Below, piece after piece: positions 20,845 to 21,713 of a DNA stretch of 64,000 bases (its first letter is position 1; each line of letters starts with the position of its first letter). The DNA is from Rhodohalobacter sp. SW132 (lineage in GTDB: Bacteria; Bacteroidota; Rhodothermia; Balneolales; Balneolaceae), in NCBI RefSeq assembly GCF_003390325.1, contig NZ_QUOK01000008.1:62001-126000 (forward strand), read 5' to 3'. The notes under the pieces were generated by a model that was given only the letters and a program-made list of their open reading frames with translations, made no database searches and had not been told where the DNA came from. The position numbers and the translations under genes were made by a program.

Positions 20845-20917
20845 CGCGGGGTGGAGCAGCTGGTAGCTCGTCGGGCTCATAACCCGAAGGTCGTAGGTTC
20901 GAATCCTACCCCCGCCA
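20845..20917 (+). tRNA. Initiator tRNA-fMet (CAT anticodon)
   Basis: A complete cloverleaf can be drawn: acceptor 20845-20851 with 20910-20916, D arm 20854-20869, anticodon stem TCGGG/CCCGA around the loop CTCATAA with anticodon CAT at 20878-20880, variable loop 20888-20892, T stem GTAGG/CCTAC with loop TTCGAAT. Two initiator marks are present: position 1 C does not pair with position 72 C, and the anticodon stem has three consecutive G:C pairs. The discriminator is A and CCA is not encoded. A hairpin terminator follows six bases later. Confidence 0.95.
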
Positions 20918-20922
20918 CTTTT

Positions 20923-20960
20923 AAAAGGCTTGGTCGTTGCAAAACGGTCAAGCCTTTTTT
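20923..20960 (+). terminator. Rho-independent terminator of tRNA-fMet
   Basis: Left arm aaaaggcttg at 20923-20932 pairs with caagccttttt at 20949 onward, and the inner bases gtcg/cggt can extend the stem. The right arm runs into six T residues. Confidence 0.85.
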
Positions 20961-20995
20961 GTTTTTATGCTTCATCATTTTGATACAATGATTTC

Positions 20996-21124
20996 GTGGT
21001 AGCTCGTCGGGCTCTTATCCGCCAGTTGGCGGACGTAGGTTCCCGCATAGCGATCCCTTCGGGAGAATCCTACCCCCACTACTTTAGAAAGGCTCAATTG
21101 CTCTCATGCAGTTGAGCCTTTTTA
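20996..21124 (+). repeat. Degenerate tRNA-fMet-like repeat unit 1 with its own terminator
   Basis: The 3' D-arm and 5' anticodon arm of the upstream tRNA (ggtagctcgtcgggctc) are copied here, but the anticodon and its 3' strand are replaced by ttatccgccagttggcggac, which contains its own GTCCGCC-like palindrome. The T-arm start gtaggttc is then interrupted by an insert of about 22 bp with the hairpin atcccttcgggaga before the T-arm resumes as gaatcctaccccc. A hairpin (aaaggctcaa...ttgagcctttt, about 21088-21123) follows, matching the position of the terminator after the genuine tRNA. The 5' acceptor half is absent, so this is not a functional tRNA. Confidence 0.8.
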
Positions 21125-21138
21125 TTTTAGATAAGTGA

Positions 21139-21248
21139 TTTGGGGTAGCTCATCGGGCTCTTATCCGCCGGCTGGCGGACGTAGTCCGAACCCTACCCCA
21201 CCAATTTTGAATAGAATCATTGCTCTCAAAATTATTTGAGCTTTTTTA
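21139..21248 (+). repeat. Degenerate tRNA-fMet-like repeat unit 2 with its own hairpin
   Basis: Starts ggggtagctcatcgggctc, continues with the same ttatccgccggctggcggac block as the first copy, then a short T-arm remnant gtagtccgaaccctacccc without the 22-bp insert. A weak hairpin gctctcaaaattatttgagctttttt at about 21222-21247 follows. It shares the left junction tgattt with unit 1, so these two copies probably duplicated from each other. Confidence 0.75.
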
Positions 21249-21331
21249 CATTAATCCAGAGTTCTATTTCAAAATTTAATTAAAAATTGACATTATTCAT
21301 CAAACCCAGGTTTTAACAAAGAGAGAAGGGA

Positions 21332-21590
21332 GTGGAAAAACAACATACCGTATACGTCTTACATTCTGAGAAATATGATAAGATTTACATCGGTAGATCT
21401 ACAAAATTTTCCTGAGAGATTTAAATCTCACAATGAGTTAGGCAAGAAAGGGTGGACGATCAAATTTCGACCTTGGATTATCGTGCATACAGAAAATTTT
21501 GATGAAAAGGCCGATGCAATAAAAAGGGAAAAAGAGTTGAAGTCTGCCCGAGGACGTCGATTGTTTCGATCTCATATTTTGGGACAGTAG
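21332..21590 (+). pseudogene. Small GIY-YIG nuclease gene, frameshifted
   Basis: The 5' part reads from GTG at 21332 in one frame as VEKQHTVYVLHSEKYDKIYIGRSTKF, which is a standard GIY-YIG start (YVL followed by YIG). It runs into TGA at 21413. The remaining domain is in another frame from about 21410 to the TAG at 21588-21590 and reads PERFKSHNELGKKGW and later EKADAIKREKELKSARGRRL, the normal second half including the conserved Arg and Glu-rich helix. One extra T in the run at 21407-21410 explains the break. The total would be about 86 residues. The stop codon lies inside the D-arm of the next tRNA-like repeat. Loss of function looks recent because the remainder is intact. Confidence 0.8.
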
Positions 21591-21713
21591 CTCGCCGGGC
21601 TCTTATCCGCCGGCTGGTGGACGTTGGTTCTCGCATAGCGATCCCTTCGGGAGAATCCTACCCCCGCCACTTTAGAAAAGCCTGATCGTATATAGCGGTC
21701 AGGCTTTTTTTGT
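21584..21713 (+). repeat. Degenerate tRNA-fMet-like repeat unit 3 with its own terminator
   Basis: Reads cagtagctcgccgggctcttatccgccggctggtggacgttggttc in two parts, followed by the same insert as unit 1 (cgcatagcgatcccttcggga) and the T-arm end gaatcctacccccgcca, which here retains the genuine tRNA 3' end better than units 1 and 2. The hairpin aaaagcctgatcg...cggtcaggcttttttt at about 21676-21710 follows. Its arms differ from those of the tRNA's terminator but preserve pairing. The GIY-YIG stop codon is part of this unit. Confidence 0.8.

Follow-up and report, generated by a model that had tools for sequence, protein, structure and literature searches.

SegB of phages T4 and T6 is a free-standing GIY-YIG homing endonuclease of the tRNA region (excerpted text of PMC13096335 and PMC2988022). 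In phage T6, it cuts tRNA genes at the motif RAWTSGAAC and drives tandem amplification of the tRNA together with segB (PMC13096335, excerpt), and the excerpts of both papers report neither a carried tRNA tail nor hairpin-disrupted copies. SLX1 is a structure-specific repair nuclease, for which the survey text excerpted from PMC1564403 gives no link to tRNA genes or mobility. REP/REPIN palindromes, which go together with RAYT (Y1) transposases, are short and dispersed in intergenic DNA. Elements that integrate at tRNA 3' ends, moved by an integrase, keep the tRNA intact and repeat its 3' end. Rickettsia palindromic elements are palindromic inserts within genes, reportedly also RNA genes, that form longer sequence families and are not known to carry a nuclease.

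Here, we analyzed a stretch of 64,000 nucleotides from Rhodohalobacter sp. SW132 (GCF_003390325.1, contig NZ_QUOK01000008.1, positions 62,001 to 126,000), referred to as the window, in which an intact tRNA-fMet gene is followed by three degenerate copies of itself and a GIY-YIG gene. This array represents a decayed form of a GIY-YIG element family that targets tRNA genes. As with SegB, the GIY-YIG gene adjoins a tRNA gene, and the cleavage motif of the phage enzyme is that of the tRNA T loop: RAWTSGAAC is the reverse complement of the T-loop sequence that the inserts described here split (GTTC|GAATCC). Unlike SegB, the family is chromosomal, single-domain, and closest to UPF0213 and SLX1, and its cleavage of tRNA genes is presumed. 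With these two closest relatives it shares a minimal standalone domain, and it differs from SLX1 in its link to tRNA genes. The hairpins, short, dispersed, and intergenic like REP/REPIN palindromes, differ from them in lying inside tRNA copies and in having variable stem sequences, and the inserted units described below contain no HUH/Y1 transposase gene. In contrast to the Rickettsia elements, disruption here affects copies alone and leaves the intact tRNA untouched. Insertion keeps the tRNA whole and repeats its 3' end, as in integrative elements, but the units encode a GIY-YIG nuclease alone, with no tyrosine or serine recombinase in the ~300- to 333-bp insertions. Nor is the arrangement that of a group I intron, since the adjacent tRNA is uninterrupted and no intron family was found in the window.

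The array consists of the following features:

20845..20918, + strand: intact tRNA-fMet (CAT), the putative target gene (ARAGORN; Rfam RF00005, 66.7 bits)
20925..20956, + strand: terminator-like stem 3' of the tRNA (ggcttg...caagcc), from the sequence
~20999..21081, + strand: copy U1, fMet-derived, from D arm to acceptor 3' strand, doubly disrupted (alignment)
21015..21034, + strand: anticodon-arm palindrome of U1 (sequence match of the anticodon block)
21043..21064, + strand: T-loop two-hairpin insert of U1 (CCGCATAGCGA TCCCTTCGGGA), structure kept in relatives
21091..21118, + strand: terminator-like stem 3' of U1, from the sequence
~21145..21203, + strand: copy U2, with the anticodon palindrome and without T-loop insert (alignment)
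21161..21180, + strand: anticodon-arm palindrome of U2 (sequence match of the anticodon block)
21214..21241, + strand: weak terminator-like stem 3' of U2, from the sequence
21332..21590, + strand: GIY-YIG nuclease gene, frameshifted (Pfam PF01541 on the C-terminal part; intact orthologs adjoin tRNA-fMet in relatives)
~21587..21670, + strand: copy U3, doubly disrupted, its D arm holding the GIY-YIG stop codon (alignment)
21603..21622, + strand: anticodon-arm palindrome of U3 (sequence match of the anticodon block)
21631..21652, + strand: T-loop two-hairpin insert of U3 (TCGCATAGCGA TCCCTTCGGGA), by sequence match
21679..21705, + strand: terminator-like stem 3' of U3, from the sequence

The three partial tRNA-fMet copies that an earlier note on this DNA had seen after the genuine tRNA were borne out by local alignment, with scores of 30.8, 25.0, and 28.8 for U1, U2, and U3, far above the maxima of 16.8, 15.0, and 15.8 reached in the 2000 dinucleotide shuffles that define the chance level. 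The palindrome that it described in the anticodon arm was confirmed in all three; the block TTATCCGCCnnnTGGyGGAC occurs in the 5.08-Mb genome only in U1, U2, and U3, and control matches numbered 0. Likewise, the hairpin insert reported for two copies, [C/T]CGCATAGCGATCCCTTCGGGA, was found as a 22-nt sequence at 21043-21064 and 21631-21652, in both cases placed precisely between GGTTC and GAATCC, and U2 is devoid of it. The claim that every copy has a terminator-like stem of its own holds for U1 and U3, but the stem of U2 is weak. Neither ARAGORN nor the Rfam tRNA model called U1, U2, or U3, or any other tRNA at the array besides 20845-20918.

As previously described, the GIY-YIG gene lies between the second and third copies and has its stop codon inside the third, but it is frameshifted. 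Its N-terminal part (21332-21415) begins with a GTG at 21332, carries the GIY..YIG motif, and ends at a TGA (21413-21415). The remainder is in another frame (21375-21590), is matched by PF01541 at positions 21-74 (E 3.4e-7), and ends at a TAG (21588-21590) that belongs to the GTAGCTC of U3. Since the two halves are in different frames, a one-base shift at a T run has split the gene. The frame is lost at TTTTCCTGA (21408-21415), many relatives being intact, and this loss may reflect a programmed shift or a sequencing error. The window nuclease would have lost its reading frame after the array had formed.

Similar arrangements were found at the fMet locus of relatives and elsewhere in the same genome. 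Genomes G006 and G033 have, in this order, the tRNA, a terminator, an intact GIY-YIG gene, a disrupted copy, and a second terminator, and in G033 the unit is tandemly repeated. The fMet locus of the congener G003 (L199) retains one disrupted copy carrying both inserts, and a nuclease gene was not detected there. Within the own genome, degenerate copies of tRNA-Gly, Asn, Asp, Arg, Pro, Ala, His, and Glu adjoin or lie near the intact gene and carry other palindromes; in the fMet and Asn copies alike, the palindrome replaces the 3' anticodon stem plus the variable loop. The arrays derived from tRNA-Gly, Asn, and Asp come with GIY-YIG genes, and disrupted copies without any nuclease also exist (tRNA-His, Glu, Ala, Pro, and Arg). 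These nuclease-free copies are what one would expect from a passive origin, that is, ordinary tandem duplication of a tRNA with its terminator, followed by inactivation of the copies by dispersed palindromes, the GIY-YIG gene being a resident or cargo without a role in movement. The duplication of terminators along with the copies in the fMet arrays and the dispersal of the two-hairpin palindrome (see below) also favor such an origin, which we consider unlikely in view of the nuclease associations and insertion sites that follow.

The nucleases of this family have 80 to 90 amino acids and a single GIY-YIG domain. A family profile, built from 12 nucleases of which most are tRNA adjacent, matched 219 of the 394 sampled genomes of the phylum, and the family is distributed across the Bacteroidota/FCB group. 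Of the 110 top-ranked loci, 98 have an intact same-strand tRNA nearby (upstream within 600 bp in 84) and none has an opposite-strand tRNA beside the nuclease, although these loci are the top of a list ranked by seed similarity and the association rate of the whole family may be lower. The complete lack of opposite-strand cases argues against passive duplication, as does the scarcity of tRNAs beside other GIY-YIG genes of the same genomes: in a Pfam-based set, an intact tRNA lay within 1.5 kb (<=1.5 kb) of 11/17 family members versus 3/19 other GIY-YIG genes, the window itself being one of these three. Approximately 76 of 87 tRNA-nuclease pairs have a tRNA-derived copy 3' of the nuclease, whose T arm is interrupted in 45 cases and contiguous in ~25.

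The Pfam domain exceeds the curated cut-off (PF01541 E values of 1.1e-15 and 5.7e-19 for intact relatives) and the catalytic Y, G, R, H, and E are invariant among 12 relatives, placing these proteins in the GIY-YIG nuclease superfamily. Values of dN of ~0.1 to 0.36, with dS mostly saturated, fit purifying selection on the nuclease. By profile, the nearest solved relatives are UPF0213 (1zg2, E 6.6e-14) and SLX1 (8e-9), with I-TevI at 0.003; a PHROG homing endonuclease was matched at 1.4e-4 by one of two proteins only. The family would work in the manner of a homing gene, but with UPF0213 and SLX1 as closer relatives than I-TevI, its membership in the I-TevI/Seg lineage is not supported. No DNA-binding domain beyond the catalytic one is present in the family nuclease.

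Each nuclease lineage is tied to one tRNA isotype. On a tree of 95 nucleases, resting on 87 columns, the isotype label required 18 changes, for a minimum of 9 and a mean of 63.6 after shuffling (0/200 shuffles as low), and the host-family label required 30. The lineages associated with tRNA-Ser, Leu, and Asn each include several host families, and this isotype specificity across families is hard to reconcile with passive duplication. In a smaller tree, the fMet clade, including the window copy (read across the frameshift and masked with X for this purpose only), had 100/100 support; horizontal transfer within this clade (family f1) was not significant (p-AU 0.096). As a separate observation, the acceptor and anticodon stems of tRNA-Val(TAC) in genus g20 (L340-L354) vary strongly between species with pairing kept, perhaps through escape from, or conversion by, elements.

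Occupied and empty alleles could be compared at tRNA-Ser genes, the comparison that the earlier note had proposed, and exact insertions were found in two genera. In Balneola sp. HCUG1436-7 (G030), the tRNA-Ser(TGA) ends in CTCTCCGCA and is immediately followed by the nuclease ORF, the start of which overlaps the tRNA end; 3' of the ORF comes GGGGTTC[TGCCAAAGGCATCCCTTCGGGA]GAATCCCTCACTCTCCGCA and then a terminator. The protein is identical in L130. Seven congeners have the empty site, where the tRNA runs straight into the corresponding terminator sequence. The insertion amounts to ~300 bp (query 407 to 682, target overlap 26). The same tRNA of Rhodohalobacter sulfatireducens (G241, L157) carries an insertion of ~333 bp that repeats ~19 bp of the tRNA tail, and the congeners G433 and G022 match both flanks without a break, with overlaps of ~19 bp. 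The nuclease was absent from this site in 14 retrieved loci of the genus, G209 is occupied, and three others have a nuclease upstream of the tRNA. A tRNA-Val element is also patchy within this genus. Thus, a nuclease gene plus a new, hairpin-bearing tRNA 3' tail has been inserted precisely after the 3' end of tRNA-Ser, and a site-specific insertion separates occupied from empty alleles at both loci, as expected for a SegB-type homing gene. This exactness at otherwise conserved sites is the opposite of what passive duplication predicts. The mobile unit proposed in the earlier note, which targets a tRNA and supplies it with a new 3' end, therefore stands for the tRNA-Ser of G030 and G241, and in the window the nuclease is frameshifted; the unchanged array in distant genera that would have spoken for inheritance was not encountered, presence being patchy. 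In some species (L365, L378, and L383), the nuclease is located upstream, not downstream, of the intact tRNA-Ser.

tRNA 3' ends are also the attachment sites of tyrosine-recombinase integrative elements, of which the disrupted copies could be scars, and in the own genome a tRNA-Asp is used by an integrase (L057). We give this origin next to no credence, because the inserted units measure just ~300 to 333 bp and contain the GIY-YIG gene alone; the absence of a recombinase from the units contradicts it at both tRNA-Ser loci. Carriage by phages or plasmids was rejected as well, with 0 matches of the T-loop pattern in viral contigs and only distant Listeria matches by tblastn. In the region of the integrase just mentioned (L057 and L030, C1 ~941-978 kb), a P4-like tyrosine integrase gene adjoins tRNA-Asp 3' fragments, the intact tRNA-Asp is ~36 kb away, and two tandem GIY-YIG/disrupted-tRNA units are nearby, probably an island integrated at tRNA-Asp with the two units just outside.

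The T-loop pattern GTTC-N10-ATCCCNNNGGGA-GAATCC had 32 matches in 14/296 genomes and none when reversed as a control. Among 84,980 named genomes, 46 loci were found, all in FCB lineages apart from one Verrucomicrobia MAG (L123), taken as a chance match since its first hairpin does not pair. Across 24 distinct inserts, hand-picked for variety, 95.8% of the cells of the two short hairpins are paired, and 24 cells are compensatory (0/500 shuffles). Part of hairpin 2 was fixed by the search pattern, which makes hairpin 1 the less biased test; its Watson-Crick fraction was 0.898 versus a shuffle maximum of 0.676. An alternative folding as one long hairpin extending the T stem showed no covariation beyond shuffles, unlike the two short hairpins. 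Hence, the hairpins are conserved in structure, not in sequence, at one fixed T-loop position across isotypes. Some other units have different palindromes at the T arm. The core TGCCnnnGGCATCCCnnnGGGA was also detected away from tRNAs, in ~109 places of 33/296 genomes of the phylum, so the two-hairpin insert belongs to a dispersed type of palindrome, common to these units but not specific to them. In the own genome, one further, diverged copy of the window insert sits in the loop of a long inverted repeat (C16:3077). The earlier note had named dispersal without tRNA association as evidence against its reading, and this applies to the insert; the anticodon block in the own genome is confined to the copies. 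The dispersed TGCCnnnGGCATCCCnnnGGGA is often central in another inverted repeat (e.g., L183, L188, and L190).

Conservation of structure rather than sequence, together with the fixed position, could also indicate an element driven by its hairpins, in which the palindromes would be recognized by an SLX1-like nuclease as branched or hairpin DNA and would provide a transposition-like reaction with its ends or signals, and the tRNA tail would be the part matching the target. The closeness to SLX1 and UPF0213 and the central location of the same insert type in other palindromes are in line with this. However, the T-arm hairpins are different or absent in many units, hairpins occur where no nuclease is near, and template-switch correction can keep DNA palindromes paired without function, making such a reaction, in our judgment, quite improbable. 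The covariation would likewise suit a functional RNA, such as a tRNA-like decoy or a 3' structure that would protect or regulate a nuclease mRNA made from the tRNA promoter, and the copies, located between the nuclease stop codon and the terminator, would be cotranscribed. Yet, they vary greatly in the parts kept and in the mode of disruption, and no window copy is called a tRNA by ARAGORN, leaving little probability for a role as RNA.

The mechanism that best accounts for these results, in which we have moderate confidence, is nuclease-driven homing into a tRNA gene combined with tandem duplication. The basic unit pairs a small single-domain GIY-YIG gene with a disrupted copy of the targeted tRNA 3' of it, has the same orientation as the tRNA, and is located at or just beyond the tRNA 3' end. 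We infer that the nuclease is the mover from its association with tRNAs, isotype-specific lineages, conserved catalytic residues, and purifying selection. The SegB motif being the reverse complement of the T loop, and the insert splitting that very sequence, suggest cleavage of an unoccupied tRNA, repair, and duplication. In this model, a tRNA gene that is intact and unoccupied would be cut by the nuclease, most likely within the T arm, and the break would be repaired from the element-bearing allele, the tRNA serving as the left and the carried tail as the right homology arm. Recutting would lead to tandem duplication of the unit, and the palindromes would presumably serve to render the copies uncuttable and useless as tRNAs. 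Several observations count against homing. The T loop is unchanged in the intact tRNA next to the nuclease, which calls for some means of preventing self-cleavage; the ~25 copies with a contiguous T arm mean that disruption there is not universal; and the closeness to UPF0213/SLX1, the single domain, the nonsignificant transfer in the fMet clade, and the two-hairpin insert away from tRNAs all weigh on the same side.

More tentatively, and with doubts that exceed our confidence, these units could form a class of minimal mobile elements of the Bacteroidota/FCB group, in which an isotype-specific, SLX1-like nuclease of 80 to 90 residues copies itself beside tRNA genes with a self-carried tRNA tail, and structure-conserved hairpins act as its own end signal or immunity mark. 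The element is probably selfish and the class appears to be undescribed, no prior description of tRNA-GIY-YIG-disrupted-copy elements having been found in the literature searched. If homing is correct, the tRNA genes of a whole bacterial phylum host selfish nucleases that are each specific for one isotype and would be to the chromosome what SegB is to the phage, although built on another branch of GIY-YIG proteins. This would account for the abundance of small GIY-YIG genes next to tRNAs in Bacteroidota and for the enigmatic broken copies of tRNAs found there. One would then have to ask how an essential tRNA gene can persist next to a nuclease aimed at it, and the natural pairs of occupied and empty sites would suit tests of homing without a large DNA-binding domain.

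Repetition was also seen at two other loci. At L070 (G017:C4), ~8 tandem tRNA-Asn-derived units of ~132 bp each contain the block TTATCCCGACgatGTCGGGAC, and at L002 (C6), stretches that contain palindromes, among them CGGCTCGGCGAGCCG and CCGGATCGCCGATCCGG, are repeated 3' of the GIY-YIG gene.
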